From the IMG/VR virus record IMGVR_UViG_3300041586_000064, positions 1 through 29,792 of that record: a DNA stretch of 29,792 nt, one strand, 5' to 3'. This stretch comes from a virus. The translations under genes were made by a program, and so were the position numbers. The notes beneath the pieces are model-generated. The model made no database searches, had not been told where the DNA came from, and saw nothing but the letters and a program-made list of their open reading frames with translations. Shown piece by piece: positions 3,966 through 18,730 of this stretch. Within the stretch, counting starts at the first letter, position 1. Every line of letters starts with the position of its first letter.

Positions 3966-3983
3966 AAATTTATAAATAAAAAA

Positions 3984-4023
3984 ATCCTATCAGTTTGGTA
4001 GTAGAGTACCTCCCTGATAGGAT
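3984..4023 (-). promoter_or_regulatory. Leader hairpin with U-tract before the helicase gene
   Basis: On the minus strand a perfect 10-bp stem (ATCCTATCAG with CTGATAGGAT) encloses an inner 4-bp stem (GGTA/TACC) and is followed at once by seven T residues. The U-tract ends about 15 bases before the helicase ATG and the hairpin lies about 50 bases downstream of the predicted transcription start. It has the form of an intrinsic terminator but sits between a promoter and its gene, so it may be an attenuator or a 5' leader structure. Confidence 0.65.
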
Positions 4024-4074
4024 AATAAAAAATGTTTTTAGTTGTATTAAGTTCTCTACAAAATAATACTAATG

Positions 4075-4104
4075 CAAATATAATATAAAATAGTAAATAA
4101 ACAA
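4075..4104 (-). promoter_or_regulatory. Bacteroidetes-type promoter for the helicase operon (proximal)
   Basis: On the minus strand the -7 box TATATTTG (4082 to 4075) lies 19 bases after a TTG -33 element (4104 to 4102). This matches the Bacteroidetes consensus of TTTG/TTG, 19-21 bases, TAnnTTTG. The start site would fall near 4068, giving a leader of about 100 bases that includes the hairpin at 3984-4023. Confidence 0.7.
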
Positions 4105-4199
4105 TAGTTTTGTATAAAAAAAAGCAAGTGCGATATAATCACAAATGCTTCTTTAATAATTTTAAATTCTAAAAATTAGTGGTTTTATCCGTCGAAAGT

Positions 4200-4230
4200 C
4201 AAATATACTACTTATTTCTTAATTCCCCAA
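4200..4230 (-). promoter_or_regulatory. Bacteroidetes-type promoter for the helicase operon (distal)
   Basis: A second minus-strand consensus promoter: TTG (4230 to 4228), a 20-base spacer, then TATATTTG (4207 to 4200). It overlaps the 3' end of the 42-residue ORF at 4212-4340 and has the same -7 octamer as the promoter 118 bases downstream, so the helicase unit would have tandem promoters. Confidence 0.6.
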
Positions 4231-4340
4231 TAAATCCAATCTAAATATTTTTGTATTTCTTTGCGTCTTTCTGGACTTGCGGAAATTTTCTCTTTTTCTA
4301 GTTCGGCCAATGTGGGTTGCTTAATAACTTGCTTTTTCAA
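4212..4340 (-). CDS. Small hypothetical protein with TTG start
   Basis: A 42-residue ORF, reading (TTG)KKQVIKQPTLAELEKEKI at its start and ending LDWIYWGIKK. The TTG directly abuts the TAA of the upstream gene (TAATTG), and no in-frame ATG exists, so translation would need a TTG start, probably by coupling to the gene before it. The composition (charged helix followed by an aromatic end) looks protein-like rather than random. It fills what would otherwise be the only sizeable gap in this part of the operon. Function unknown; a chance open frame is still possible. Confidence 0.45.
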   Translation of the reverse strand: MKKQVIKQPTLAELEKEKISASPERRKEIQKYLDWIYWGIKK

Positions 4341-4607
4341 TTAAAAATCTAAATCATCAGATAAATCATTTTCCGCCTCTGTCATTTGATCTTTTCTTGG
4401 CGGCGAAACAATTATACCATCTGTCCAAATTACGTTACCGTTTGCAAGATAAACACGTTTTTCCTTAGCATCTCTTTGCTCTTTAGATTGCGCCAAATAC
4501 ATCGATACGTTTTGGCCATATTCGTTAGCGGTGTCGGAAATTGAAATGGTGTATTGCTTGTATTTTCCATTTTTGCCTTTAATTCCTAAGTTAATTAATG
4601 CACTCAT
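4341..4607 (-). CDS. SSB-like small protein with acidic C-terminal tail
   Basis: An 88-residue protein with a beta-rich N-terminal part, a basic stretch (residues 9-17), a conserved-looking WTDGIIVSPP segment (61-70), and a strongly acidic end, ENDLSDDLDF. Acidic tails ending in an aromatic residue are typical of phage and bacterial single-stranded DNA-binding proteins, where they recruit partner proteins. Its place, seven bases after an ERF annealing protein and upstream of the helicase and primase, fits a single-strand binder. The OB-fold itself cannot be confirmed by eye and the protein is shorter than standard SSBs, so the role is an inference; it may be an unrelated recombination accessory. 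Confidence 0.8.
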   Translation of the reverse strand: MSALINLGIKGKNGKYKQYTISISDTANEYGQNVSMYLAQSKEQRDAKEKRVYLANGNVIWTDGIIVSPPRKDQMTEAENDLSDDLDF

Positions 4608-4614
4608 AATATGT

Positions 4615-5154
4615 TTAAAATTTTGTTAATAATTCTTTTGTTAATAATTTTGTTCTTTGTTGTTCTGTTGCGTTTAAAGACTTGTATATTAAACCTAAAC
4701 TATCTTTGTTTTCCGCATTATGCAATAACATTTCGTTGTTTTTTTGCTCTTGTGTTAATTGAATAGACTTTTCTTTTGCGGGAACTGTTGCTTTTTGTCC
4801 GTCATCATCTTCGCTTCCTGCTGCGACAAAACTCTGCAAACCATATCTTCTAGCGTATGATATACCGCTACCTTGACTCTGTGCATCGTTTTGCTTAGAA
4901 AATATAATTTCGGTTAATGATTCTATTAATTCGCCTGATTCATGCATTAAAATAGTTTTAACGTAGTTTTTACCCTCTATTGTGCAAGTTGGCTGCAATA
5001 TAACAATTCCGTTGTTATTAAACGCTGGTAATATAGCTTCTAATATGCTATTTAAATCGCTATATTTATTTTTAAAGAAAGGATTTAAAGCTGTTTTTTT
5101 AGGTGTTACCATTTCCATTTGAGCTTTAACTAATGCAGTTGCTAAGTTTTTCAT
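4615..5154 (-). CDS. erf: ERF-family single-strand annealing protein
   Basis: A 179-residue protein with the features of the ERF superfamily of phage recombinases, which anneal complementary single strands during phage recombination and circularisation. The N-terminal NPFFKNKYSDLNSILEAI (24-41), a central GNxYVxTxLxHxSGExIES pattern (around 61-79), QGSGISYARRYGLQSF (94-109) and the acidic EDDDGQ (115-120) all match the family. The C-terminal third is a variable, glutamine-rich tail. It lies directly upstream of the SSB-like gene, a common pairing in phage recombination modules. No RecE/exonuclease partner is seen beside it; the VRR-NUC nuclease lies at the far end of the window. Confidence 0.9.
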   Translation of the reverse strand: MKNLATALVKAQMEMVTPKKTALNPFFKNKYSDLNSILEAILPAFNNNGIVILQPTCTIEGKNYVKTILMHESGELIESLTEIIFSKQNDAQSQGSGISYARRYGLQSFVAAGSEDDDGQKATVPAKEKSIQLTQEQKNNEMLLHNAENKDSLGLIYKSLNATEQQRTKLLTKELLTKF

Positions 5155-5156
5155 AA

Positions 5157-5393
5157 TTATTTATTCGTTAATCTTAATTCTCTCAATTGATATTGTCTCT
5201 CTTCTAATTGCTTTGCAACTGCTTTTTTTATTTTATAAATATTTGCAAATACTGGATCGTTCATATTTTCTTTCCAGTCGTGCGAGTCGCTATCTATGCG
5301 CTTTGACGATAAAAACATTTGTCTAGTTTTTAATGGAATTTGCATATAGTGTTCCTCAGTCATTTTTAAAAAAATTTCTCTGTTGCTTTCCAT
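5157..5393 (-). CDS. Hypothetical protein upstream of ERF
   Basis: A 78-residue, highly charged, probably all-helical protein with two Arg/Gln/Glu-rich stretches and an aromatic-containing centre (HDWKENMNDPVFANIYK). It has no recognisable domain. It ends three bases before the ERF start and begins about 20 bases after a 50-residue ORF, so it belongs to the recombination segment of the operon. Function unknown. Confidence 0.75.
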   Translation of the reverse strand: MESNREIFLKMTEEHYMQIPLKTRQMFLSSKRIDSDSHDWKENMNDPVFANIYKIKKAVAKQLEERQYQLRELRLTNK

Positions 5394-5413
5394 AACTTAT
5401 TTTTTTTTAATGG

Positions 5414-5566
5414 TTAAATTGAGTTTAAAACTTCTGTTTGAGTTTTATAAATTCTAGTTTTTTCGTTGTATTTTCTATTATTAGAAAAATACCCTACTCT
5501 TTCGCCATTATTGTAACTTGCTACTAAATTGTAACCTTTTCTGTTTAATTTTTCTTGAATAGTCAT
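5414..5566 (-). CDS. Small hypothetical protein
   Basis: A 50-residue protein starting MTIQEKLNRKGYNLVASY and rich in Asn, Lys and Tyr. The pattern (short amphipathic helix, then GYxxVxxYxNGERVGYFSNNRKYNE) resembles a small beta-hairpin domain rather than a random frame. It is the first ORF after the promoter-like box at 5633-5640, with a leader of about 60 bases. Function unknown. Confidence 0.65.
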   Translation of the reverse strand: MTIQEKLNRKGYNLVASYNNGERVGYFSNNRKYNEKTRIYKTQTEVLNSI

Positions 5567-5601
5567 AATTTCTATATTTTAGTGTTTAGCTTTATTGCTG
5601 G

Positions 5602-5640
5602 TGTAAAAATACAATAGTTTTACATTAGTTCGCAAATATA
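5602..5640 (-). promoter_or_regulatory. Promoter-like box and short leader hairpin
   Basis: A minus-strand -7 octamer TATATTTG lies at 5640-5633, identical to the strong promoters elsewhere, but the expected -33 TTG is poor. Just downstream, TGTAAAA and TTTTACA (5602-5608 with 5618-5624) can form a 7-bp hairpin in the leader of the 50-residue ORF. Confidence 0.45.
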
Positions 5641-5664
5641 TTAACAATAATTTAAGAAATAAAA

Positions 5665-5686
5665 AAACCACTTGTTACGGTGGTTT
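5665..5686 (-). terminator. Intrinsic terminator after the 96-residue ORF
   Basis: On the minus strand, AAACCAC and GTGGTTT form a 7-bp stem around an 8-base loop, followed directly by a run of seven T residues. It lies about 30 bases after the stop of the gene at 5718-6008 and just upstream of a new promoter-like box, which fits the end of one transcription unit and the start of the next. Confidence 0.75.
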
Positions 5687-5717
5687 AAATAAATTGCTTG
5701 CAGTCGGTAAAAGAATA

Positions 5718-6008
5718 CTATTCTAAGAGTGGTTTTTTAGAAACTCGCATACCCATTAAATACGAATTGTAATTTATTTCGCTATGGTCGTAATACCATT
5801 TAAATATAGCACCTTTTGGAGCGTATCGTTCTAAATCTAAACGTATATTTTCAAAAGAAAAATAAGCATCGTTAAAACAATTTACCCCACCTTTAATATC
5901 TCCTATCCAACCGTAAGCATGACAGTCTTGTTTTTTACAAAATAAGTCAGTGTAAAGATCAATGCAATTGTCTAGCCTTTCTTTTATTTCTTGTATTTGT
6001 ATTTTCAT
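5718..6008 (-). CDS. Hypothetical phage protein
   Basis: A 96-residue soluble protein with a Cys/Trp-rich middle (LFCKKQDCHAYGWIGD, 22-37) followed by FNDAYFSFENIRLDLE and KGAIFKWYYDH. Proteins of this layout are seen in Bacteroidetes phage early regions, but I cannot give it a function. Its ATG overlaps the stop of the 47-residue ORF upstream (ATGA), and a clear terminator follows, so it is the last gene of its unit. Confidence 0.75.
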   Translation of the reverse strand: MKIQIQEIKERLDNCIDLYTDLFCKKQDCHAYGWIGDIKGGVNCFNDAYFSFENIRLDLERYAPKGAIFKWYYDHSEINYNSYLMGMRVSKKPLLE

Positions 6009-6148
6009 TTTAATAAATATTTTATAGGTTTTTGTAAATGCGGTAAGTCTTTAGATTCTCTAACCAATTTTTTTGCATTTGGTATTAATGCGCTTGCAAT
6101 TTCTGCAAGTGTAAATCTATTCTCCAATACGTTGTATGTTCTTTTCAT
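6005..6148 (-). CDS. Small hypothetical protein
   Basis: A 47-residue ORF beginning MKRTYNVLENRFTLAEIA and ending IKYLLK. An A-rich leader (AAAATAAAAAAC) precedes the ATG, as for other genes here. The stop overlaps the next start by ATGA, and the start lies 32 bases inside the gene before it. The sequence around 10-35 could be a short helix-turn-helix, but it is too small to judge. Function unknown. Confidence 0.6.
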   Translation of the reverse strand: MKRTYNVLENRFTLAEIASALIPNAKKLVRESKDLPHLQKPIKYLLK

Positions 6149-6371
6149 GTTTTTTATTTTGATCGTAAATTCTTTGGACCATTAATATTTTATCTCTATT
6201 TTTTAAATAGTAAATCTCTCGATATGCTTTTATTTCTTCTTTAGTCTTTTTTAACCTTCTTTTAGCCGTTGGTACGGCTTCTTTTTTTATTTTAATACTT
6301 TGCGCTGTGCAACATCTTTTGGAGCTGGATTCGGTAACGTATTTTTGACCGCAATTACAATAATGTATCAT
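6117..6371 (-). CDS. Hypothetical Cys-rich, basic protein
   Basis: An 84-residue protein. The N-terminus carries C5, C7, C20 and C21 with H3, a possible zinc-binding cluster (HYCNCGQKYVTESSSKRCC). The rest is strongly basic and helical (KKTKEEIKAYREIYYLKNRDK), so nucleic-acid binding is plausible. Its start lies 17 bases inside the helix-turn-helix gene before it. No family is recognised; the zinc site is an inference from cysteine spacing. Confidence 0.7.
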   Translation of the reverse strand: MIHYCNCGQKYVTESSSKRCCTAQSIKIKKEAVPTAKRRLKKTKEEIKAYREIYYLKNRDKILMVQRIYDQNKKHEKNIQRIGE

Positions 6372-6615
6372 AGTTTAATTTGGATTCTATTATTAAATAA
6401 TTTGCAGTATAACCTTTAATATCATTTTTAATTTTATGTGAATATTTATAAACATAAGATTTTTCTAAAACAATAATTACGTCAGCTGAATACATCGCAT
6501 TTCTATTTTTAGAACTATATCTTTTTATTTTTAAAATATTTAATTTATTTCTAACTGATTTTTCTGAAATTTTTAAATGATTTGCTAATTGTGTGAGGGT
6601 ATATAATAATTCCAT
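6355..6615 (-). CDS. Helix-turn-helix protein, MerR/excisionase-like
   Basis: An 86-residue protein whose first half reads as a MerR/excisionase-type helix-turn-helix: LTQLANHLKISEKSVRNKL (7-25), then a basic wing-like stretch KIKRYSSKNRNAMYS (29-43) and a following helix DVIIVLEK. Such proteins act as small regulators or recombination directionality factors; with no integrase in view, a regulatory role within the early operon is the safer reading. A long hairpin leader (6630-6693) ends 14 bases before the ATG, so its own translation may be controlled. Confidence 0.7.
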   Translation of the reverse strand: MELLYTLTQLANHLKISEKSVRNKLNILKIKRYSSKNRNAMYSADVIIVLEKSYVYKYSHKIKNDIKGYTANYLIIESKLNYDTLL

Positions 6616-6629
6616 TTATTTTTTTTTAT

Positions 6630-6693
6630 GCCATAATCAACTTTCTTACCAGAAGCAAAAAAGTTAAGTTTTGTTTTTTTAGCTGACTATGGC
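6630..6693 (-). promoter_or_regulatory. Hairpin leader A before the helix-turn-helix gene
   Basis: On the minus strand GCCATAGTCAGCT pairs with AGTTGATTATGGC over 13 bp (two G-U pairs) around a 38-base loop. The 3' side runs into TATGGCATAAAAAAAAATAA and then the ATG at 6615. The same shape and the same 3' flank occur before the next upstream gene (6967-7015), although the stem sequences differ. Confidence 0.6.
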
Positions 6694-6768
6694 TGTTTAA
6701 TATTTATTTTTAAAACGGTTTATGCTTGGCGTATTAAATATACTGTAAGCGATTAGTTATTGGCAAGG

Positions 6769-6948
6769 CTAAAAACCGTTTAAAATCATAATCTTTTTTA
6801 AAGCCGAACTAGCTCTTTCTCCAGGGTCTCCATATTCATCTTCCAAATCATCATCCCATTTGGTAATATCATTCAATGCCTGTTCAGCTACTTTTAATTT
6901 AGACTTTGCTAATTCAAGGGCTTGTGTAAGTTTTTTTTCTTTTGACAT
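6769..6948 (-). CDS. Small acidic hypothetical protein
   Basis: A 59-residue ORF: MSKEKKLTQALELAKSKL at the start, an acidic WDDDLEDEYGDPGERASS centre (31-48), and an ALKKIMILNGF end. It is preceded by an A-rich leader and hairpin leader B (6967-7015), so the start is well placed. The protein looks like a helical hairpin with an acidic loop. Function unknown; it sits between a DUF3310 gene and a helix-turn-helix gene in the early operon. Confidence 0.7.
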   Translation of the reverse strand: MSKEKKLTQALELAKSKLKVAEQALNDITKWDDDLEDEYGDPGERASSALKKIMILNGF

Positions 6949-6966
6949 TTTATTTATTTTTTTTAT

Positions 6967-7015
6967 GCCATAATTTAACAGTTACTAAGCAGCATTGCAT
7001 CTGTTAAATTATGAC
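6967..7015 (-). promoter_or_regulatory. Hairpin leader B before the 59-residue ORF
   Basis: On the minus strand GTCATAATTTAACAG pairs with CTGTTAAATTATGGC over 15 bp (one G-U pair) around a 19-base loop. It ends 18 bases before the ATG at 6948 and is followed by CATAAAAAAAATAAATAAA, not by a U-tract, so it is not an intrinsic terminator in this direction. It shares its 3' flank and geometry with leader A. Confidence 0.65.
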
Positions 7016-7024
7016 TGATTAATA

Positions 7025-7393
7025 TTACTTTTTTAAATTTTTTATTTCTCGTTGCAAAAAGTCAATAGCTTTTTTCAAATCCTCTATTTCGTCGTCTTTT
7101 TTGCCAGCACGAACTATGTATTTTATTGCTGAACCACGACAAAAATTAATATTGTTGTCATGGCAAAAATCAATTACGTCTTTATTCGTTGCGTTTTTGT
7201 AGTGTTTGGGTACGTCGTTGTCAACTAATATAGCTTCATGTAATTGTTTCCAATATAGATATCTTTCTTTTGTATGCCCCCAAGTAAACGCACAATCTAA
7301 ATCATTTGTGTCTTTATTACAATATTTTTCCGCTCTTGCCTGATAATATAACGCTTTTTTATTATTATCTAGATCTAATTCTGATATTAACAT
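7025..7393 (-). CDS. DUF3310-containing protein
   Basis: A 122-residue protein. Residues 61-120 carry the DUF3310 pattern found in many phages: PKHYKN (62-67), VIDFCHDNNINFCRGSAIKY (73-92), IVRAGKKDDEIEDLKKAIDFL (93-113). The family is common in phage nucleotide-metabolism and replication regions, but its biochemical role is not settled. The first 60 residues are a family-variable extension with a Trp/Tyr-rich stretch. Its start overlaps the stop of the upstream gene by seven bases. Confidence 0.85.
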   Translation of the reverse strand: MLISELDLDNNKKALYYQARAEKYCNKDTNDLDCAFTWGHTKERYLYWKQLHEAILVDNDVPKHYKNATNKDVIDFCHDNNINFCRGSAIKYIVRAGKKDDEIEDLKKAIDFLQREIKNLKK

Positions 7394-7608
7394 AGTAATT
7401 TATTTAGTTGTTTTTTAATTTCGTAGAGCCTAATTAATTCGTCGTTTGTTTTTTCCATTGGAAAGTTAAAAATTGTAAAATACTCTTTAGTAAGTTTTGC
7501 AATTTTAATAAGTTCGTCATGATACCATGCATCTACTGTTACTTGTTCAGTTTCTGTTTGCTCTTCGTTTAAATACGGTGCATTGTTCGTGTAGTCTGTT
7601 GTGTCCAT
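7387..7608 (-). CDS. Hypothetical protein, first gene of the leftward early operon
   Basis: A 73-residue protein with a disordered, acidic, Thr/Asn-rich N-terminus and a helical C-terminal half (DAWYHDELIKIAKLTKEYF, then EKTNDELIRLYEIKKQL). No family recognised. It is the first gene after the divergent control region: the -7 box at 7632-7625 lies 17 bases before its ATG and overlaps a perfect palindrome, so its expression is probably under operator control. Confidence 0.75.
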   Translation of the reverse strand: MDTTDYTNNAPYLNEEQTETEQVTVDAWYHDELIKIAKLTKEYFTIFNFPMEKTNDELIRLYEIKKQLNKLLC

Positions 7609-7624
7609 GTGTTTTATTTTTTTA

Positions 7625-7632
7625 CAAATTTA
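7625..7632 (-). promoter_or_regulatory. -7 box of the leftward early promoter
   Basis: Minus-strand TAAATTTG matches TAnnTTTG and lies 17 bases before the ATG of the first leftward early gene. There is no good TTG at the -33 position; the 16-bp palindrome fills much of the spacer instead. This arrangement suggests a regulated promoter. Confidence 0.5.
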
Positions 7633-7645
7633 AGTTATAACTTAA
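7630..7645. promoter_or_regulatory. Perfect 16-bp palindrome, candidate operator
   Basis: TTAAGTTATAACTTAA is a perfect inverted repeat with no spacer. It overlaps the last three bases of the leftward -7 box and lies in the 123-base gap between divergent operons. A dimeric repressor bound here would cover the leftward promoter. The XRE-type protein encoded at 8358-8612 is the nearest candidate ligand; that link is inference. Confidence 0.55.
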
Positions 7646-7674
7646 TATGTAATAGTTAATAAAACGTTAAATTA

Positions 7675-7686
7675 ATCATTAATGAT
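7675..7686. promoter_or_regulatory. Perfect 12-bp palindrome, second candidate operator
   Basis: ATCATTAATGAT is a perfect palindrome 45 bases (centre to centre 43) from the 16-bp one and just upstream of where the -33 element of the rightward promoter would lie. In AT-rich DNA such palindromes can arise by chance, so the call rests on position. Confidence 0.35.
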
Positions 7687-7709
7687 ATTTATTTTATCAG
7701 AAGTGTTAC

Positions 7710-7717
7710 TATATTTG
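7710..7717 (+). promoter_or_regulatory. -7 box of the rightward cassette promoter
   Basis: Plus-strand TATATTTG, 15 bases before the ATG at 7732, matches TAnnTTTG exactly and is identical to the octamer of the leftward promoters. The -33 region has TTTA rather than TTG, so it may be weak or need an activator. Confidence 0.55.
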
Positions 7718-7731
7718 TAAAAAAAAATATT

Positions 7732-7863
7732 ATGAACGATTTTTATTTAGCCCGTATTGAGGCATTGGAAAAGAGAATAGCAGAATTAGAAAAAGAAAAG
7801 TACATTGCTGCGCTTAAAATTATTATTAACGACCCTGTATTTAACGAACCTATAAAATTATGA
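7732..7863 (+). CDS. Small coiled-coil protein, first gene of rightward cassette
   Basis: A 43-residue protein: MNDFYLARIEALEKRIAELE, a heptad-patterned helix, then KYIAALKIIINDPVFNEPIKL. Its first 22 residues resemble those of the next gene (MND, R-I-x-A-L-x-K-R-[IV]-x-E-[IL]-E-K), so the two may share a dimerisation helix by duplication. Its stop overlaps the next ATG (ATGA), and the promoter box at 7710 lies just upstream. Function unknown; it may pair with the product of the next gene. Confidence 0.7.
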   Translation: MNDFYLARIEALEKRIAELEKEKYIAALKIIINDPVFNEPIKL

Positions 7864-8216
7864 ATGATATAGACAGTACACGCATCTCAGCACTTCAAAA
7901 AAGAGTAAGCGAAATTGAAAAGTTAATGGTTTTGTATGACATCAACAACAATCAAAAAGAAATTAATAATGATAACAAAATCACAACGCAAGGGGGGTTT
8001 AAGCAGCTAGAAGAGCAATTAATTATGAACGTAAATGTCAGCACTTTTAATTCTTATGAAGTAAAAGATAAGGATTTTTTATTTTATAATAGCGTTACAG
8101 GATTTTATTGCAGTAATTACTTTAGTATAATATGCTGCTTAACTACATTTAATCATTATACCTTTGCAGTTTTTTCTGATGACAACGGTAAACTAAAAAC
8201 AGATTTTAACTTATAA
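7860..8216 (+). CDS. Hypothetical protein with N-terminal coiled coil
   Basis: A 118-residue protein with a coiled-coil start (MNDIDSTRISALQKRVSEIE) like that of the preceding gene, an Asn/Lys-rich linker (28-42), and a C-terminal half rich in Phe, Tyr and Cys (FLFYNSVTGFYCSNYFSIIC, 73-92) that looks like a small beta-rich domain. No membrane segment is certain. It is translationally coupled to the 43-residue gene by ATGA. No family recognised. Confidence 0.75.
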   Translation: MNDIDSTRISALQKRVSEIEKLMVLYDINNNQKEINNDNKITTQGGFKQLEEQLIMNVNVSTFNSYEVKDKDFLFYNSVTGFYCSNYFSIICCLTTFNHYTFAVFSDDNGKLKTDFNL

Positions 8217-8232
8217 ATAAAAATATTTTATT

Positions 8233-8361
8233 ATGTGGAAATATATAAACAAAACTCTCCCTACTTCGGTAAAAATAGTTTTATTAATTATTATTATTGC
8301 GGATTTATTATTTATTATATTTGATTATTTACCCAAATTATTTAGACTAATATCATCATGA
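8233..8361 (+). CDS. Small single-pass membrane protein
   Basis: A 42-residue protein: short basic N-terminus (MWKYINKTLPTSVK), one hydrophobic segment (about 15-30, IVLLIIIIADLLFIIF), then DYLPKLFRLISS. One membrane span with a basic N-terminal end suggests an inner-membrane protein. The stop overlaps the ATG of the XRE gene (ATGA), so both are made from one message. Small membrane proteins in phage cassettes often act in superinfection exclusion, but nothing here shows that directly. Confidence 0.7.
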   Translation: MWKYINKTLPTSVKIVLLIIIIADLLFIIFDYLPKLFRLISS

Positions 8362-8612
8362 GTAAAATACAACAACAATTAACGGCCATTTTAAGGGCTA
8401 AAAAAGACATTGTAGGTATTAGTGCCCTGCAATTAAAGAGATGGGAACTAGGCACTACTTCGCCTTCGCTAGAAACGTTTGAAAAGGTCTGCAAAGAGAA
8501 CAATATAGACGTACATGAATTTTTTGTTTATGATCTTGAAAGTTTGTTGCAATTTGCAAACAAAGCGGGTAAAAAACTAGGTCATAAAGTAGTAATAACT
8601 TTTGAAAAGTAA
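8358..8612 (+). CDS. XRE/Cro-type helix-turn-helix regulator
   Basis: An 84-residue protein. ISALQLKRWELGTTSPSLET (20-39) matches the recognition-helix end of Cro/C1-type domains (SxxQLxRWExGxxxPSLETF), followed by the usual helix FEKVCKENNIDVHEFF. The first helices (MSKIQQQLTAILRAKKDIVG) are shorter and less typical than in full XRE domains, so the DNA-binding unit may be reduced. The C-terminal tail has no known domain. It is the only regulator in the rightward cassette and the best candidate to bind the palindromes at 7630-7686. Confidence 0.7.
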   Translation: MSKIQQQLTAILRAKKDIVGISALQLKRWELGTTSPSLETFEKVCKENNIDVHEFFVYDLESLLQFANKAGKKLGHKVVITFEK

Positions 8613-8615
8613 CGG

Positions 8616-8783
8616 ATGCATTGTCAAAGACCAGTAAAAAATGAAAAGACGAACAAATGGGAAGTTTGGGACTTTGCGTATAAGGAAAAAGGTGAAAGAC
8701 ATTACGAACTTCATAAATTTTTTACACACAAAGAAGCTGTCGAATTTTGGAAAATAAGAAACCCAAAACAAAATAATAATTAA
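8616..8783 (+). CDS. Small hypothetical protein
   Basis: A 55-residue ORF starting MHCQRPVKNEKTNKWEVWDF, rich in Trp, Lys, His and aromatic residues, with a C-terminal TFTHKEAVEFW-like helix (residues FFTHKEAVEFWKI). It begins three bases after the XRE stop. The regular WEVWDFAYKEKG/HYELHKFF pattern looks like a small beta-beta-alpha fold. No family recognised. Confidence 0.65.
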   Translation: MHCQRPVKNEKTNKWEVWDFAYKEKGERHYELHKFFTHKEAVEFWKIRNPKQNNN

Positions 8784-8944
8784 ATATAACGGCTGAAGCT
8801 AACCGATGTTTAGGGCAAAGTAAGCCTAGACTTTGGTATGATTACCCAAACTTACAGACACAAACAAATTATTAAATTAAAAACCATAAAGCCTAAATAG
8901 CGGTTAACGTATGTTATCACTTAGCTTTTTAAAACACAACACAA
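8784..8944 (+). other. Non-coding stretch able to fold; possible structured RNA
   Basis: No gene is seen in these 161 bases, which include segments richer in G and C than the neighbours. GCTAACCGATGTTTAGGGC (8798-8816) is nearly complementary to GCCTAAATAGCGGTTAAC (8891-8908): about 15 pairs with two mismatches and one bulge. Inside it, GTAAG/CTTAC (8820-8824 with 8851-8855) and TTTGG/CCAAA (8832-8836 with 8846-8850) form a second, bulged hairpin. This is a plausible multi-stem RNA or an old fold-back element. No promoter was found. Confidence 0.4.
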
Positions 8945-9136
8945 ATGAAAACATTTAAAATAATTATTGGATACTTAATTGTATCACTTTTTGCAATAAT
9001 GATAATATACTGTTTTGTTGATAATATCTATCAAAATGGTTGGTAATTTATATTATCTCTATTTATTGTTTTAGCTTTAATTGGATTACTTCTTTTTGGA
9101 CTTAATCTTTTAAGCAACAACGACCAAGATGAGTGA
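8945..9136 (+). pseudogene. Two-span membrane protein ORF interrupted by TAA
   Basis: From the ATG at 8945 the frame encodes MKTFKIIIGYLIVSLFAIMI and a short IYCFVDNIYQNGW loop, then a TAA (9044-9046). The same frame stays open for 30 more codons and encodes a second hydrophobic span (about FILSLFIVLALIGLLLFGL) and an acidic end SNNDQDE before TGA at 9136. Together they make a sensible 64-residue two-span membrane protein, so the TAA looks like a nonsense mutation. Alternatives are a genuine 33-residue product, or chance hydrophobicity downstream. Confidence 0.45.
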
Positions 9137-9201
9137 CAACGTCGTTGCGGCTTGCAGAAGGAAAGGATTACGAAGCACAAATTATAAATTAAACACAAAT
9201 T

Positions 9202-9534: not shown

Positions 9535-9599
9535 TTTATTATAACTTATCGCTAAAATTTATTAATAAAATTAAAAACAGCTATAACAAGCGGTTTTTT
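9535..9599. terminator. Convergent intergenic gap, possible weak terminator
   Basis: The gap between convergent genes holds a 12-bp AT palindrome (TTTATTAATAAA, about 9558-9569) and, on the plus strand, a run of eight T residues right after AAGCGG (about 9590-9601). A weak CGCT/AGCG pairing precedes the run. Transcripts from both sides probably end here, but no strong hairpin is present. Confidence 0.3.
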
Positions 9600-10475
9600 T
9601 TATAGTTCCATCATTATATTAGTTGCACGTTTTCCATATTCTACAACACCGCAAGATATAGCAGGCTTTGCATAATTTTTACCATAAGCTAATGCATAAG
9701 ACTTATTATCTACACCACAACCAACTTGCATACCAAATATTTTAAATTTAGCTCCTACAATCCACTCAACATAACATTCCTTGTGTAAATGTCCTTGCAC
9801 TACGCTTTGTAAATCTCTACGCGCTCTATTTCTAGCCGTTCCACCTTCTCCATGAATATATAAAACATCATCTATCTCTACGCTTTCAACAAATTTCCAT
9901 CCGATAACACCCAAAACCTCAGCGTAATCTCTAATCCACATTTTAGACAAGCCGCTAGTCATTGCTTTACGCATTATAAGCCGATCATGGTTACCAATGG
10001 TAACGTATGCTTTTGGAAAAACTTTGTACCACTCTTTTATATTATGAATCGCAAGTTTTAATTCTTGACCGGCTGAATGTCCATCTGGATCTGTTTCGTG
10101 GTAAGAACTTGCGTGATTGTCTATAACATCCCCTATGAACACAACAGTATCACAATTATATTCCTGGTAAGTTTTTAAACAATGATCCCTATATTTTTCT
10201 AAGCAAAACGGTTCGTGTAAATCTCCAATAATTAAAACGCGTTTACCTTTTTTATTTATTTTAACGTTTTTAGGTAGTGCTTTAATTTCGTCTTGACTAT
10301 TAAACGCATCTGTAAATACTGCTTTTCTAGTTGTATTTTCTAAGTTTGCAAAGCTATTTAAATGCTGTTCCTCTTGTTTTACGGTTAAAGTATATTGATT
10401 TATTTCTTTTAATTCTAAGCCTAAATTAGCCGCTTGGTAATTGCTTAATCGGTAACGTCTGTTATTATTTTTCAA
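9600..10475 (-). CDS. Calcineurin-like metallophosphoesterase
   Basis: A 291-residue protein with all the metal-binding motifs of the calcineurin-like phosphoesterase family in order: GDLH (84-87), GDVIDNH (115-121), GNHD (161-164), an IHGE histidine (207-210) and GHLH (228-231). It should be an active metal-dependent phosphatase, phosphodiesterase or nuclease; the substrate cannot be told. The first 70 residues form a variable N-terminal extension. It is the last gene of the leftward late module, ten bases after the spanin candidate. Possible roles are nucleic-acid processing or removal of a host signalling nucleotide; both are inference. Confidence 0.9.
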   Translation of the reverse strand: MKNNNRRYRLSNYQAANLGLELKEINQYTLTVKQEEQHLNSFANLENTTRKAVFTDAFNSQDEIKALPKNVKINKKGKRVLIIGDLHEPFCLEKYRDHCLKTYQEYNCDTVVFIGDVIDNHASSYHETDPDGHSAGQELKLAIHNIKEWYKVFPKAYVTIGNHDRLIMRKAMTSGLSKMWIRDYAEVLGVIGWKFVESVEIDDVLYIHGEGGTARNRARRDLQSVVQGHLHKECYVEWIVGAKFKIFGMQVGCGVDNKSYALAYGKNYAKPAISCGVVEYGKRATNIMMEL

Positions 10476-10484
10476 GGTTAAGTT

Positions 10485-10910
10485 TTATTTAAATTTTATT
10501 AGGGCAAATAAAAAGATTAATATTATTGCTACTATCCAAATTAAATTATTATTGCTTTGTGTCTCTTTATTTTTGACTGATTTATAAGTTATCGTATTTC
10601 TGTAAATGTCAAACGTTTTATAACGCACTGAATCAACTATTTTTATGTTAGTAGTGCTTTTATTGTTTTGTACAAAAGTTTCTTTTAAGCCGTCTTTTTC
10701 TCTGGAGTAAATATACCCACGATCAAAGGTATTATTAATATCAAGTTTTTTAAACAAAGAAAAGTCAACAGAACCAATTGTTTCTGCTGACTTTAATTTA
10801 TCTAATTCTTTTGTCTGATCTGTTTTTCTAGTACCGCATCCAACCTGAATTACCACCAAAAAGATAATTACTAATTTTGTCGAATAATTTTTCCATGATA
10901 TTTTTTTCAT
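10485..10910 (-). CDS. Candidate unimolecular spanin (lipoprotein plus C-terminal TM)
   Basis: A 141-residue protein with a hydrophobic lipoprotein-like start (KLVIIFLVVIQVGCG, candidate lipidated C25), a charged periplasmic-type middle (26-118), and a C-terminal membrane span (about 121-138, NLIWIVAIILIFLFALIKFK). An outer-membrane lipid anchor at one end and an inner-membrane span at the other is the layout of unimolecular spanins, which fuse the two membranes in the last step of lysis of Gram-negative hosts. It lies 13 bases after the lysozyme gene, which supports this. The lipobox is imperfect (Q at -3), so a two-span membrane protein is the main alternative. Confidence 0.6.
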   Translation of the reverse strand: MKKISWKNYSTKLVIIFLVVIQVGCGTRKTDQTKELDKLKSAETIGSVDFSLFKKLDINNTFDRGYIYSREKDGLKETFVQNNKSTTNIKIVDSVRYKTFDIYRNTITYKSVKNKETQSNNNLIWIVAIILIFLFALIKFK

Positions 10911-10923
10911 AAGTGATTACAAA

Positions 10924-11677: not shown

Positions 11678-11702
11678 AGTAGGTAAGCTGAGGCATTTAA
11701 AA

Positions 11703-11927: not shown

Positions 11928-11943
11928 TTTGTTTTATATTTAA

Positions 11944-13236: not shown

Positions 13237-13237
13237 A

Positions 13238-13720: not shown

Positions 13721-14201
13721 ATTTTTCTGGTTTGATCCAATTTAAAGAAGTCTTTACTTTTATTCTACTGTTAGAAGGTCTTTCAGGCAAATTTAACTCC
13801 TCCAAGTGTTCTTGCATTTTTATTTCTAATCCTAACGCTAATTTTTCATACTTGTCAGCCATTTTGACTAATTCTTCAGATGACTGTTGCGTACGTTCAG
13901 GTGTTACTAGATACGCTCCATTTTGGCTTACCTTAATTATGCCTAACTGCAAATAAAAACTACAAGTGTAATAAGATAATATTAATTCTATGTAGTCATT
14001 AAATAATGCTAGGTATTCATTTTGCAAACTATCATTATTAAAATCAGTCTTAATTTTTAAATACAAAGGATTACCTAACACCCTTTTAATTTCAGTACTT
14101 TCAGCCATAAAAATAAAAGGATTAATAGAATCGTTGTCTATATTTCCATCAAACCCGCTTAATTTTGCTATGTTTTCTATATTAGTTAATAATTTATTCA
14201 T
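13665..14201 (-). CDS. Putative head-tail connector protein
   Basis: A 178-residue, mainly helical protein that directly follows the portal gene (8-base overlap). Its features (IKRVLGNPLYLKIKTDF, 38-54; NDYIELILSYYTCSFYL, 68-84; a C-terminal LNLPERPSNSRIKVKT stretch) fit the gp6-like/adaptor class of small helical proteins that dock under the portal, and similar genes sit next to portals in Bacteroidetes phages. That role is inferred from position and helix pattern. Its last 18 codons overlap the next gene in another frame. Confidence 0.65.
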   Translation of the reverse strand: MNKLLTNIENIAKLSGFDGNIDNDSINPFIFMAESTEIKRVLGNPLYLKIKTDFNNDSLQNEYLALFNDYIELILSYYTCSFYLQLGIIKVSQNGAYLVTPERTQQSSEELVKMADKYEKLALGLEIKMQEHLEELNLPERPSNSRIKVKTSLNWIKPEKFDNEYNHDKCRPTQHGTR

Positions 14202-15303
14202 TTGTTATATTTGTATCTGAAACAATTATTTTTTCTTGACCAAAGTTTATAAAATCAATATCGGCATTAGGATTAATTTTTCTAAACATTTCGTTTAGAT
14301 ATTCTATTAATTCATCTCTTATAGGGTTAATAGTGCTTAAATATAATGAATCTGTTGCTGTTGCTATCTCGTCCGCATTGCTAGAAAATCCATTGCTACC
14401 AGGTCTGGAAAATAATATATTCATAGCCTGATGTGCTGCCATTAATTTAATTTCGCAAGTTTCATCATAAGTTACAAATTGCTCGTTACGTCCTCGTGGT
14501 TCTATTGTATCTATAATTATAGCTTCGTTTGCGCTTTCGTTTACAGAAATTATAACACCATCTCCGTTTTCAGTTCCTGTATAGTCGTCTCCTATTTTTT
14601 TAGATATTTCTTTTTTTTCATCTTCATCCATTAGGCCACCACTATTAATATTTATAATAGTTTTTCCCTGAAATCCACGCATCACATGATTAACCGCATC
14701 ATCAATTAATGCACTTTCTATTTTAGCGCTTTTAAAGCCACTAAACCAATCAGGAAAAGGAAAGTAAGGCTCTGAGCTTAATATTTTTAAATGTAATATC
14801 TCAATAGGGTTATCATTGTCGTACTTGCTAAACATTGGGTAAGGTCTAGGAGGGAACTCTCCTTCTCTTGTATAATCCCAGCAATACCAATAACCGTCAA
14901 CCTCCATGTATCTTTCATCCCGTGCATCTATATTTACATTTAAACCCATTCTAATATTAGGTGTGTGTAAAAATTTAACTACGTTACCCTCAAAATTTAT
15001 AGACTGAATAAATGCCGAACCATCCCTTTTAAAGTCTAAAACTATTTTGCGCAAATCTCCTTTTGCTAAAAATTCATGTGGTTTAAGCGATCCGCTTTTG
15101 TCTACAAGTCCTTTACCTACAATATAATTTACAATTGTCTTAATTATAAAAGAATTGGTAGGGCTGTCATCGTAAGAATCTCTATATTTTTTAAAGTTTA
15201 TATTATTTTTACCGTTTAAGGTGTATTCTTTTCCTACTGATGGTCTTTTAACGCCTGTTTCGTAAGCAGAAAATTGAACAAGATTTATATTTTTTTTTGT
15301 CAT
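14194..15303 (-). CDS. Portal protein
   Basis: A 369-residue protein that should form the twelve-part ring through which DNA enters the head. Matches to portal proteins: WFSGFKSAKIESALIDDAVN (about 187-206), GFQGKTIININSGGLMDEDE, KKIGDDYTGTENGDGVIISV, and IKLMAAHQAMNILFSRPG in the C-terminal half, which follow the stem/wing pattern of SPP1- and HK97-type portals of Bacteroidetes phages. At 369 residues it is on the short side. It lies downstream of the capsid gene rather than next to the terminase, which is unusual. The start overlaps the previous stop by one base. Confidence 0.85.
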   Translation of the reverse strand: MTKKNINLVQFSAYETGVKRPSVGKEYTLNGKNNINFKKYRDSYDDSPTNSFIIKTIVNYIVGKGLVDKSGSLKPHEFLAKGDLRKIVLDFKRDGSAFIQSINFEGNVVKFLHTPNIRMGLNVNIDARDERYMEVDGYWYCWDYTREGEFPPRPYPMFSKYDNDNPIEILHLKILSSEPYFPFPDWFSGFKSAKIESALIDDAVNHVMRGFQGKTIININSGGLMDEDEKKEISKKIGDDYTGTENGDGVIISVNESANEAIIIDTIEPRGRNEQFVTYDETCEIKLMAAHQAMNILFSRPGSNGFSSNADEIATATDSLYLSTINPIRDELIEYLNEMFRKINPNADIDFINFGQEKIIVSDTNITNE

Positions 15304-15632
15304 TAGTTGTAAAATTTAGTATTTTGTAGCTTAGTATATTCCTGCACGTTTTGCGTTTCTGATACTACTAAAATTTTACCTAAAGATACTATTTTAAGAC
15401 TTAAATTTTCTATCAAAGTATAACTAAATTTATTACCAATTTGGGATATTGGAAAAGATAATAATGTAACTTTATAGTTATCATTTTCTAATAATGTAAC
15501 GTTTGCAACTATCTCACTTGATAATCTTGTAAATTCATTTATAAGCAGGAAACGCAATTGCAAAGCTATATTTAATTTATAACGTGATACAATTTCAAAT
15601 GATGGCAAAGTGTTAATTCTTAAAATATCCAT
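15303..15632 (-). CDS. Hypothetical protein between tail-tube candidate and portal
   Basis: A 109-residue protein rich in Leu, Ile, Asn and Thr, with alternating hydrophobic residues that suggest beta strands (ANVTLLENDNYKVTLLSF, 43-60). No membrane span or known domain. It begins after a terminator-type hairpin (15652-15675), with the U-tract ending about 15 bases before its ATG, and ends by overlapping the portal start. A head or neck role is possible by context only. Confidence 0.7.
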   Translation of the reverse strand: MDILRINTLPSFEIVSRYKLNIALQLRFLLINEFTRLSSEIVANVTLLENDNYKVTLLSFPISQIGNKFSYTLIENLSLKIVSLGKILVVSETQNVQEYTKLQNTKFYN

Positions 15633-15651
15633 GTTATAAATTTATTTAAAA

Positions 15652-15675
15652 AACGCCTAACAATTGTTAAGCGTT
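15652..15675 (-). terminator. Hairpin with U-tract before the 109-residue gene
   Basis: On the minus strand AACGCTTAACAATTGTTAGGCGTT is a near-perfect palindrome (9-12 bp stem with one G-U pair) followed by six T residues. It begins seven bases after the stop of the tail-tube candidate and ends about 15 bases before the next ATG. It should lower or stop transcription into the portal genes unless anti-terminated. Confidence 0.7.
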
Positions 15676-15681
15676 AAATAT

Positions 15682-16194
15682 TTATTGTACTGGTAATAAT
15701 GCAGCGTTTAAAGCAATAACCCCCAGCGGTGCTAATGTAAATGCTAAATCTACTTCTTTTGAATTTATTGTTACTGTAAATCCTTGTAAGTCTGATCCAC
15801 CTACTAGTGTCATTACATCACAACCATTTTGCGATCCTAAAACACGAATTACACCGTTGTAATCCTCTACAAAAATAGTTTTTAAAATTCCTGAGTCTGT
15901 TGTAATTTCATTTCTTAAAGATAAATCATTACCGTTTACAAAAAATGTTAAAACTCCTACGATCTCGTTTGTTCGTGTAGCCTCGTCAAATGTTGAGGTT
16001 TCTACAATGTTGTTTCCTGCTGCTTTTACCTCTACTTTTGTTACGCTAAGAGCGTTTATAATTGCGGGCAAAGCAACTACACCTGTTACCGTATTTACCA
16101 CGGGAGTTGATGCTAAAAAAGGCGCAAAGAAAACGGATTTTATCCCTTTCATTGGTGCTTTCCTACTTACTAATCTTGATTTTGTTAGACTCAT
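15682..16194 (-). CDS. Structural protein, possible tail tube
   Basis: A 170-residue beta-rich protein with few charges and many Val, Thr, Ala and Asn. SLTKSRLVSRKAPMKGIKSV at the start, FVEDYNGVIRVLGSQNGCD (107-125) and LQGFTVTINSKEVDLAFTL (135-153) recall the small tail-tube-like proteins of Bacteroidetes phages. It follows the 127-residue gene by one base and ends before a hairpin terminator, in the highly expressed capsid segment. The tube assignment is an inference; a head decoration protein is the alternative. Confidence 0.55.
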   Translation of the reverse strand: MSLTKSRLVSRKAPMKGIKSVFFAPFLASTPVVNTVTGVVALPAIINALSVTKVEVKAAGNNIVETSTFDEATRTNEIVGVLTFFVNGNDLSLRNEITTDSGILKTIFVEDYNGVIRVLGSQNGCDVMTLVGGSDLQGFTVTINSKEVDLAFTLAPLGVIALNAALLPVQ

Positions 16195-16195
16195 T

Positions 16196-16579
16196 TTATA
16201 TTGATTTTACAAAAATCTGTACTGTTGCACGATATGCAACCACTTGATTTGTTAAATATGTTTGATCTTGAAAATTTCCTACTTCTACGTTTGTAGTTAA
16301 AGAAATTAAAGAACCAAAAGTTGTTACTACTGGTGTTGCTAAAAATTCCGCTGCAATTAAATCAACAATTTGCTTATTAATTCCTACTGTTGCATTGTTA
16401 AAAATTGCTAACATTGTGCCTTGTGCTGTTGCAGTTTCTACTGTTGCTTTTGGAATATTTAAAACAACCGTTCTAATGTATTCGAAATCTGCAAAAGTTG
16501 CAATACTAGGCCTGTTATATGCTGTTGGCAATTGCAAATCAGAAAGACTATTTTGCGCTCCTAAATTTGTTATAGGCAT
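16196..16579 (-). CDS. Hypothetical structural-region protein
   Basis: A 127-residue protein with low charge, rich in Ala, Thr, Val and Asn, matching the composition of its structural neighbours. The start is MPITNLGAQNSLSDLQLPTA and the end RATVQIFVKSI. No family recognised. It is the first gene after the capsid, separated from it by a hairpin with a U-tract, and may be a decoration, head-completion or tail protein. Confidence 0.7.
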   Translation of the reverse strand: MPITNLGAQNSLSDLQLPTAYNRPSIATFADFEYIRTVVLNIPKATVETATAQGTMLAIFNNATVGINKQIVDLIAAEFLATPVVTTFGSLISLTTNVEVGNFQDQTYLTNQVVAYRATVQIFVKSI

Positions 16580-16596
16580 GATGTTATTTTTTTAAA

Positions 16597-16617
16597 AAGG
16601 GTACATTACATACCCTT
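16597..16617 (-). terminator. Hairpin with U-tract after the capsid gene
   Basis: On the minus strand AAGGGTA and TACCCTT form a 7-bp stem around seven bases, followed by TTTTT. It lies 11 bases after the capsid stop and its U-tract ends about 15 bases before the next ATG. As a leaky terminator it would keep capsid message in excess over downstream genes. Confidence 0.65.
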
Positions 16618-16627
16618 ATTATTATTA

Positions 16628-17644
16628 TTATCCACCGTATAAAACACCGTCAGGATGAGCCATAACAGTTGCGTCTAGTGTGTAGATAGTTCTTACAAAC
16701 ATTACATCACTATCGTTGTCAACTTTCCCTGTTTCAAATGCCGCTACGTCTGATGTTGCATCTGTTGAAAAGAAAATAACGGATGGTCTTTGTAAGTACA
16801 CAAAACCTTTAGGGAATGGAACAAATTCAATTACAACACCGTTAAAAGATATCACTTCGTTTGCTCCTGTGCCAACAACTAAAAAGTTAACTTGTTGTGC
16901 AGCACCTACGGAATTGTTAGCAGTCAGGATTAATTGTCTGTGTGCGTAAGGTGCATACATAATAGGTAATTCAACTGCTTCAAAAGACTCAGGTCTTGCA
17001 TTTACAAAGATTTTTCCGTATTCTGTGGCAATATTTGCAACTGTAAATGTTGTACCCGCTACTTTAATATAAGCTCCCAAGGCTGTCTCGTCAAATAAAA
17101 CTCTTGACAATACACCGTCAATATCTGCTGCGTCTGCTGCAAATCCTGCAACCGCTGCTTTTGCTGATGCTGAAATGCTACCCTGTTCTGCACCTGCTGT
17201 TAATCCCGCAATAGATGCTTTAGTTGCAGCAGAAAAACCTGACCAAAACTTTAACTGTGCATCTTGAGAAGTTTTTGGGCCTGTTAATTGCAAAACTTGT
17301 GTGTTAAAATCCGAACTGTCAATGTTAAACGCACCTGTTGCCATATCACGATTAAAACGAGATTGACGTAAGTCCTCCATTTTAAATGTGTACTTATACT
17401 CAATCTTTTTTGGGTTTGCTAAGCGATCTCTAAGTACTGGACCACCTAATGAATTAAGTCTTTCTCCAGTATACTTTTGACCTTGCACCGTTACTGCGGT
17501 TTCAGTAATTATTGTAGATGCTTTTACGTCGTCTGCAAAATTTACTAAACTTTTTTGAATCGTTTTATTTGCAAAAAAGATTTCTTGGATGATAGGCTCT
17601 ACCGCCTTGCCTCTTATTGATATTGGGCTATAACTTATTGGCAT
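16628..17644 (-). CDS. Major capsid protein
   Basis: A 338-residue protein placed directly after the protease-scaffold gene. The N-terminal segment (PISIRGKAVEPIIQEIFFAN, 7-26), the RLANPKKIEYKYTFKMEDLR region, a long Ala-rich insertion (about 140-190), and a C-terminal VMFVRTIYTLDATVMAHPDG (315-334) fit HK97-fold major capsid proteins of Bacteroidetes phages. It should self-assemble into the icosahedral shell. Its size, composition, position and following hairpin terminator all fit a highly expressed structural protein. The fold is an inference from family resemblance and context. Confidence 0.85.
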   Translation of the reverse strand: MPISYSPISIRGKAVEPIIQEIFFANKTIQKSLVNFADDVKASTIITETAVTVQGQKYTGERLNSLGGPVLRDRLANPKKIEYKYTFKMEDLRQSRFNRDMATGAFNIDSSDFNTQVLQLTGPKTSQDAQLKFWSGFSAATKASIAGLTAGAEQGSISASAKAAVAGFAADAADIDGVLSRVLFDETALGAYIKVAGTTFTVANIATEYGKIFVNARPESFEAVELPIMYAPYAHRQLILTANNSVGAAQQVNFLVVGTGANEVISFNGVVIEFVPFPKGFVYLQRPSVIFFSTDATSDVAAFETGKVDNDSDVMFVRTIYTLDATVMAHPDGVLYGG

Positions 17645-17650
17645 AATTTA

Positions 17651-18685
17651 TTATTTATTGGTTTTTTTATATTCTCTAAATTTTTCCAATGCTGACATTG
17701 GTTTTGCAGGCAATCCATCAGGGTTAGGCTTAATACCTCTTAACATCTCCTCTGACATTTTAAGAGCTACTTTTTTAGCCGCAGCATATTCTTTTGACAT
17801 CATCGTGCTACCGTCTTTTAAAGCTACGATTTGCGCTTTTAAGTCGTTGTTTTCCGCTTGTAAGTCGTCCATCATTTTCATGTCCTCTTTCATTTTCATT
17901 TCGTCCTTACTAGCTTCTACTACTTTAGCTTCTGCTGCAACGGCATCTACTACTAAACCGTTTTCATCTGTTGTCATTACAAGTCCGTCAATAGTTTCTG
18001 TAATACTTGCAAATGGTACACCGTCAATGTCGGTTAATAAACCTCCAATTTCTTTTTTATCTAAATAGTAAGCCTTTTCGCCTACCATATACATATCTCC
18101 AAGTTCCTCAGCCATTAAGACTTTCTTAACACGCGCTGTAAATTCTTCGTCTGTCATTTCTATATTTTTTTGTTCTGTTAATACTGGTTCTAAGTAAGCC
18201 TCTATTGAGAAACCTGTTAATTTTCCTGACTTAATGTCAGCCCATACTTCGGGATTTTCTACGCTTTGCGCCATGACTAAATCACCTTTTATAACTTCTA
18301 GTCCTAAAACTGCGGCTTTATCTCTAATAGGATCAACAACAATCCAACTCTCAAAAATGTACATATCATTACGTACTTTTCCATCATGGTTTACTGTTGC
18401 CCCGTTGTGGCTGTTGTTTTTAAAGAAGTTTTTTTGTAAATTATAAACGGTTTCCTCACTATAAAAAACCATAGCAGGCTCTCCGTTTATTTCTTTTCTA
18501 GGTATGAGTACATTTGGCCGCATAGCAACGGAATAGATAATTTGTTTTTCGTCGTCGGCAAATTGCAGTAATTTCTCTTGACTGTCAAACATTAGTAGAA
18601 CTGTTTTTAAAGCAGGACTTTCTACTGTGGACATTCTAAATAATCCCTTTTCTCCGATAGTGTATTTTAGTTCGTAGTTTTTCAT
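17651..18685 (-). CDS. XkdF-like prohead protease with scaffold-like C-terminus
   Basis: A 344-residue protein. The N-terminal 170 residues match the XkdF-type prohead serine protease: VNHDGK with likely catalytic H100, and KLTGFSIEAYL with likely S160. The C-terminal half holds a strong coiled coil (about 258-290, rich in Met, Lys, Glu and Asp) and a Pro/Lys-rich end (KPNPDGLPAKPMSALEKFRE), the usual make-up of a scaffold domain. Protease and scaffold therefore appear joined in one chain, as in several phages, and the protease would clear the scaffold during head maturation. The capsid gene follows six bases later. A consensus promoter and leader hairpin precede it. Confidence 0.88.
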   Translation of the reverse strand: MKNYELKYTIGEKGLFRMSTVESPALKTVLLMFDSQEKLLQFADDEKQIIYSVAMRPNVLIPRKEINGEPAMVFYSEETVYNLQKNFFKNNSHNGATVNHDGKVRNDMYIFESWIVVDPIRDKAAVLGLEVIKGDLVMAQSVENPEVWADIKSGKLTGFSIEAYLEPVLTEQKNIEMTDEEFTARVKKVLMAEELGDMYMVGEKAYYLDKKEIGGLLTDIDGVPFASITETIDGLVMTTDENGLVVDAVAAEAKVVEASKDEMKMKEDMKMMDDLQAENNDLKAQIVALKDGSTMMSKEYAAAKKVALKMSEEMLRGIKPNPDGLPAKPMSALEKFREYKKTNK

Positions 18686-18701
18686 AATTTTTTAAACAAA
18701 A

Positions 18702-18730
18702 AAAGTCATACCGGATAAAGGCATGACTTT
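18702..18730 (-). promoter_or_regulatory. Leader hairpin with U-tract before the protease gene
   Basis: On the minus strand AAAGTCATGCC pairs with GGTATGACTTT over 11 bp (one G-U) around a seven-base loop, then runs into seven T residues. It has terminator form, yet lies between the promoter at 18791-18821 and the protease ATG at 18685, the same plan as before the helicase gene. It may end tape-measure transcripts, attenuate the capsid operon, or both. Confidence 0.65.

Follow-up and report, generated by a model that had tools for sequence, protein, structure and literature searches.

Six strong hairpins that stand shortly before start codons in a viral DNA stretch of 29,792 bases (IMG/VR record IMGVR_UViG_3300041586_000064, here called the window) were found to be of three kinds: terminators of the capsid gene cluster, an A-rich third element, and a leader in which the apical loop of a terminator-like hairpin is complementary to the loop of another hairpin upstream of it. 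This kissing leader precedes a superfamily 2 (SF2) helicase gene in the window and recurs in related phages with different loop sequences. The window has a GC content of 31% and its genes lie mostly on the minus strand. Its putative capsid protein has Cellulophaga phage phi46:1 as nearest isolated relative (32% identity), the helicase is nearest to those of Flavobacterium phages snusmum and mumin (40%), and promoter-like sites of the Bacteroidota form TTTG-N19-TAnnTTTG were located by a motif scan. The relatedness to these phages together with the promoter form makes the host group assumed in a first-pass annotation, one that does not rely on Shine-Dalgarno pairing, a reasonable choice, and the window can reasonably be taken as a virus of a Bacteroidota bacterium. 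A DNA search of a phage collection with the capsid region gave no match.

The helicase leader lies on the minus strand and consists of predicted features in the order promoter motif, first hairpin (HP1), linker, second hairpin (HP2), U-run and ATG. The promoter (positions 4075-4104, TTG-N19-TATATTTG, Bacteroidota -33/-7 type) was predicted by the motif scan, and HP1 (4044-4069, GTATTA-TTTTGTAGAGAACT-TAATAC) begins 5 nt after its -7 box. The loop segment GTAGAG of HP1 (4054-4059) is the complement of the apical loop CTCTAC (4001-4006), which is closed by the inner stem of HP2 (3984-4023). HP2 is terminator-like and is followed by a U-run and an A/U-rich tail (3966-3983), which places it 18 nt before the ATG of the SF2 (DEAD/ResIII) helicase gene (2391-3965; PHROG 16, Pfam PF04851/PF00270/PF00271). 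It is located 317 nt past the upstream stop codon, downstream of the promoter motif and upstream of the gene. The predicted loop pairing comprises 6 bp in the window and 6-9 bp in relatives; it had been missed by the first-pass annotation. When a loop partner was sought for the other five hairpins of the window, just low-complexity A/T matches were obtained.

In relatives, the same helicase gene was observed to carry other loop pairs, for example CTCCAC/GTGGAG, CCGACT/AGTCGG, GTAGTAG/CTACTAC and CAGCGAC/GTCGCTG. Complementarity was assessed on a non-redundant set of 46 gene starts, each with a promoter motif and with a strong hairpin close to the ATG; complementarity itself was not required for inclusion. 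The longest complement between leader and HP2 was at least 6 nt in 41 of these starts, compared with 14.4 for shuffled and 13.0 for swapped leaders; it was at least 7 nt in 34 (about 3.5 expected) and at least 8 nt in 20 (expectation about 1 or below). The five starts that stay below 6 nt involve capsid-cluster hairpins or doubtful open reading frames (ORFs). A stricter caller applied to three contig groups returned 9, 43 and 23 elements, against 0.0, 2.5 and 3.0 in shuffled upstream regions.

Near-identical HP2s located before unrelated genes differ in the kissing pair by a double change from C-G to U-A. The kissing columns of the corresponding alignment (A4) are off by one, and the change was read from the sequences rather than counted by a tool. 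An earlier MAFFT alignment of 13 mixed elements (A1) was dropped with its stems mis-registered. We also built a covariance model (R1) from a subgroup of five sequences (A2) with the kissing pairs left out, and this model was found to recover elements of other subgroups. Its matches in contigs L116, L103 and L230, which are absent from its training, again have complementary loops. Loop complementarity recurs with different sequences within a conserved layout, and we infer that the loops pair inside the cell.

The architecture was described from 55 elements, 52 of them non-redundant; both sets were picked for complementarity and the figures therefore describe the element and do not test the pairing. 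HP1 mostly starts 2-6 nt after the TTTG of the -7 box TAnnTTTG, near the expected transcription start, and is separated from HP2 by a linker of mostly 13-22 nt. In HP2 an outer stem leads through an internal loop to an inner stem, mostly 3-6 bp long, which closes an apical loop of mostly 6-11 nt; the internal loops belong to a few purine-rich types (GAGTA/GAAA, GGA/AAA, TGAA/GGAT). Folded at minimum free energy, each hairpin leaves about 90% of its kissing segment unpaired, and the loop sequences are distinct in 44 of the 52 elements. HP2 is more stable in the sense than in the antisense direction in 44 of 52, and selection thus appears to act on the RNA. The tail between HP2 and the ATG spans 7-26 nt (median 16) and is 92% A+T. 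At least four T are present within 6 nt after HP2 in 43 of 52 elements, and the T fraction is 0.76 in the first six bases as compared to 0.45 in the remaining tail. In three elements (L122:6568, L143:6129 and L164:1830; 0.04-0.25 expected) the HP1 loop sequence is copied just before the ATG, where it forms a second possible partner for the HP2 loop; two of these three have no U-run.

The recognised genes behind the kissing leader encode SF2 helicases, DnaD-like or O-like replication initiators and a primase-helicase, as well as NUMOD4-HNH, GIY-YIG and endonuclease-VII-like enzymes. Near-identical HP2s precede the helicase of the window, the gene in L139 for a 227-aa protein that matches DUF7833 below threshold, and the gene in L100 for a primase-helicase-like protein of 750 aa, and this indicates that the element is modular. 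In several contigs the caller found two or three copies, and the loop pair differs from copy to copy. Among isolated phages, called copies were observed in snusmum6-1, hemulen9-1 and FCL-2, and the same caller found no promoter-linked kissing leader in crAss001 and phi14:2 (first 50 kb of each), phi46:1, lotta8-1, FPSV-S1, 6H (first 46 kb) and 11b. A search of host chromosomes with model R1 (299 genomes of one family) gave one match, near the end of a numbered contig and beside a replication-type gene. R1 covers one subgroup and was used with strict filters, so that absence from the other chromosomes is weak evidence. In snusmum6-1 (L064, MN812234), the annotated start of helicase gp033 (9791) precedes the end of HP2; translation more likely begins at the ATG at 9827, which follows HP2 by 18 nt.

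We lean towards reading the leader as a cis-acting attenuator or switch, with expression decided by what happens to the HP2 loop, a reading that we hold with slightly more belief than doubt. The transcript would begin near HP1, and HP2 would act as a terminator or, in a few relatives, as an element that blocks translation. Whether the HP2 loop is held by HP1 would then set the amount of transcription or ribosome loading that enters the helicase gene. Attenuators have a terminator placed between promoter and gene, as in the layout predicted here, and the copies of the HP1 loop before the ATG, two of them lacking a U-run, suggest a further output stage at the level of translation, as though one output had been swapped for another; the layout and these copies together favour a cis-acting switch. 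That HP2 terminates and that pairing alters the outcome, in one direction or the other, we infer from the sequences. Several observations weigh against this reading. The predicted HP1-HP2 pairing is compatible with the folding of HP2, and pairing alone therefore fixes no direction. A clear U-run is absent after HP2 in 9 of 52 elements. The promoters are motif matches in AT-rich DNA, with window-wide counts weakly above those of shuffles, and no conserved binding pocket is evident, as the internal loops differ.

A wider proposal, which we make tentatively and would not yet call probable, is that these leaders form a new modular family of cis-regulatory RNAs in Bacteroidota phages. Each copy would have its own loop pair, the promoter and leader would move as a cassette between replication and homing-endonuclease genes, and the output would be exchangeable, mostly a terminator and sometimes a block of translation start. 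With a kissing loop pair of its own for each copy, copies within one genome need not cross-talk.

The HP1-HP2 complex might alternatively be a constitutive 5'-end structure that guards the mRNA from decay and keeps the ATG within an A/U-rich tail free of structure, open to a ribosome independent of Shine-Dalgarno sequences, while regulating nothing. The distance of mostly 2-6 nt from the -7 box to HP1, the A+T content of the tail and an architecture that is kept while the sequence is not are all consistent with this explanation. It leaves unexplained the U-run directly after HP2 in most elements, the HP1-loop copies before the ATG, and the fact that the recognised genes behind the leader are replication and homing-endonuclease genes; we regard it as unlikely, with perhaps a minor share of the weight. 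A binding site for a phage or host protein that represses or activates translation, comparable to gp32 on the T4 gene 32 pseudoknot, would fit the several copies per genome before replication genes and the few recurring types of GA-rich internal loop, and T4 replication proteins are known to bind their own leaders (PMC3014915). No sequence is common to all elements, though, with loops and stems varying freely, and one element type stands before unrelated genes, which speaks against simple autoregulation. Such a binding site is rated as improbable.

It could further be argued that all the hairpins are plain terminators of the upstream gene, brought near the ATG by compact genomes, and that the loop complementarity has no function. 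This holds for the capsid-cluster hairpins, with their short gaps, U-runs and T7-like spacing. For the kissing leader it is already contradicted: the 3984-4023 hairpin sits far past the upstream stop codon and behind a promoter motif, loop pairing is far above chance in the unconditioned test, and the pairing is kept by double changes. The hairpins at 6630 and 6967 also lack a U-run, and as an account of all six hairpins the explanation is very improbable.

Known RNA families were searched for counterparts of the leader. At the gathering threshold no Rfam family was found in the window, L020, L051, L054 or L060, and permissive thresholds gave sub-threshold matches alone in the window and six further loci. 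HP2 of L165 (3945-3994) resembles TEG147 (RF03535) with 27.6 bits, compared to a gathering score of 56.1. The two have in common an AGUAG...CGAAA bulged-G (sarcin-ricin-like) internal loop, a hairpin and a U-run; TEG147 differs in being a Staphylococcus aureus small RNA whose model has no HP1, and the match covers the HP2 part alone. A hammerhead was rejected, as its core (UGA..GAG..CGAA in some HP2s) lacks conservation and the loop has its pairing partner in HP1. A Pistol ribozyme, in which the P1 loop pairs within a later stem, was rejected as well, with no Rfam match. The leader is not a recognisable riboswitch: no nucleotide is conserved across elements save in the promoter box, and there are several internal-loop types with no conserved ligand-binding core. 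An H-type pseudoknot of the T4 gene 32 kind was likewise rejected, since in the collected elements the partner segment sits in the loop of another hairpin, each segment being about 90% unpaired in its own hairpin; the caller required the partner hairpin to have a stem of at least 4 bp.

Kissing loops and pseudoknots in leaders control termination or translation of replication-initiation genes in the plasmid antisense-RNA attenuators (pT181, pIP501) and the RepZ-type activating pseudoknots (IncB, IncI). The likeness lies in kissing within leaders of replication-initiation genes. The plasmids use a separate antisense RNA, whereas here both loops are in one leader and the loop sequence is particular to each copy. 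The T4 gene 32 leader provides a phage example in which tertiary pairing through a loop is combined with A/U-rich sequence ahead of a replication gene's start (PMC3014915), as is predicted here. It differs in being one H-type pseudoknot, 67 nt upstream and bound by gp32, while the present leader has two kissing hairpins with a terminator-like HP2 and is common to unrelated genes. Leader hairpins also precede the T-even homing endonuclease genes I-TevI, mobE and segB, where they mostly sequester the Shine-Dalgarno sequence, and in seg43(25) a stable hairpin is placed immediately before the ribosome binding site but leaves it accessible (PMC2988022). As in our elements, these hairpins stand before phage homing-endonuclease genes, but they are single and neither loop-loop pairing nor a U-run is described there.

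No description of the kissing leader was found in the literature searched, which left most subscription papers outside its coverage, and the element is apparently uncatalogued. Its parts are known separately, as the T4 pseudoknot, the homing-endonuclease hairpins and the plasmid kissing attenuators; the combination is new. Gene control in Bacteroidota phages is little described in the literature searched, and here a recurrent leader RNA, found by sequence alone, occurs on replication-start genes and mobile endonucleases, also in isolated phages. If it is a regulated attenuator, it would represent a phage control device independent of any conserved sequence. Its loop pairs would then be natural orthogonal RNA parts for expression tools in Bacteroidota, where few exist.

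The six hairpins themselves were confirmed to fold on the minus (coding) strand as the first-pass annotation had described, with U-runs after four and an A-rich leader after two. The 3' stem ends 14-19 nt before the ATG: 18 nt for 3984-4023 (ATG 3965), 14 nt for 6630-6693 (ATG 6615), 18 nt for 6967-7015 (ATG 6948), 19 nt for 15652-15675 (ATG 15632), 17 nt for 16597-16617 (ATG 16579) and 16 nt for 18702-18730 (ATG 18685). Among the gaps of at least 30 nt between co-directional minus-strand genes in the window, 6 of 11 have a hairpin with a folding free energy of -7 or lower at 10-25 nt before the ATG, compared with 0.27 on average and 3 at most over 300 dinucleotide shuffles. Across 202 gaps from related contigs and the window, 53 of 125 real hairpins were located 15-19 nt before the ATG as opposed to 2 of 86 shuffled ones. 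The hairpins are thus present in relatives and shuffled AT-rich sequence fails to reproduce them. In five of the six, the coding-strand fold is clearly more stable than that of the complement, which argues for a role as RNA. The fixed spacing proposed in the annotation stood in part: it is tight after the capsid gene and broad in the kissing leaders, so that there is no single fixed distance. The idea of one recurring device setting ribosome access is unsupported, as the hairpins split into three unrelated element types.

The hairpins at 15652-15675, 16597-16617 and 18702-18730 (all minus strand) are, judged by their short loops, stable stems and U-runs directly after on the coding strand, ordinary intrinsic (Rho-independent) terminators about 17 nt before the next start codon. 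The first lies 6 nt after a 170-aa gene and 19 nt before a 109-aa gene. The second, which covaries, lies 10 nt after the putative capsid gene and 17 nt before the next ATG; this 338-aa gene is a putative major capsid gene, and its relative in phi46:1 carries the annotation of a structural protein identified by mass spectrometry. The third belongs to the protease-capsid operon, in whose leader it stands 16 nt before the ATG, downstream of a promoter-like site predicted by the motif scan (18791-18821, minus strand, TTTG-N19-TATATTTG). At this third position a hairpin of different sequence with 16-17 nt spacing was observed in part of the relatives, whereas another branch has its terminator 28-53 nt upstream instead, and the spacing is therefore not absolute.

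Of about 45 related contigs, most have the post-capsid terminator, 4-10 nt past the stop codon, with 17-19 nt to the next ATG in 32 relatives. The pair-by-pair compensatory count, which covers this terminator, drew on 17 distinct sequences: standard pairs make up 99% of the pair cells, both sides change in five of six pairs, and covariation is 0.77 compared to 0.19 when shuffled and 0.11 or less with the strands slid. The hairpin is maintained by compensatory change. Its position resembles that of T7 Tphi, which lies between genes 10 and 11, behind the major capsid gene, and is annotated at 24210, 17 nt from the gene 11 ATG at 24228, the same distance as here. Unlike those of T7, the promoters here look host-type and Bacteroidota-like, and the tests made did not place the capsid protein with that of T7. 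In E. coli, coupled ribosomes almost fully suppress terminators that follow a gene by a few bases (PMC4824070), and by analogy the terminator directly behind the capsid gene may well be leaky. The terminators inside the capsid operon probably keep the genes behind them at a lower expression than the capsid protein. The annotation had suggested leaky terminators that tune gene ratios, and these three hairpins, as putatively leaky terminators, fit this suggestion well. A point against such tuning is that position and covariation are what it is read from.

The third element is a long hairpin with no U-run, located at 6630-6693 (minus strand, AATATTAAACA-GCCATA...TATGGC-ATAAAAAA) and, as a second copy before a 59-aa ORF, at 6967-7015 (minus strand). 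Both copies have the frame AATATTAA-n-CA-G[CT]CATA ... TATGGC-ATAAA, and the sequence behind their stems is A-rich in place of the U-run of an intrinsic terminator. One copy each was found in L049 (about 1120-1190) and L060 (about 6390-6450), and two in the close relative L002/L224; the L060 copy has no start codon directly after it. The ends are conserved (AATATTAAnCAG[CT]CATA ... TATGGCATAAA), while the arms between them are variable yet still pair. Stem sequences differ by copy, and one pair changes from G-U to G-C in L002/L224.

Two further hairpins were noticed on the minus strand of the window. The one at 5665-5686 is a conventional terminator, 31 nt past the stop of ORF 5718-6008 and, unlike the six, 98 nt before the next ATG. 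The other, at 10761-10794, is strongly terminator-like with 13 pairs and lies within ORF 10485-10910. Finally, positions 28293-28682 and 28596-28992 form a tandem duplication (repeat families D1, D3, D5 and D8; 82-94% identical) that gives two related small ORFs.

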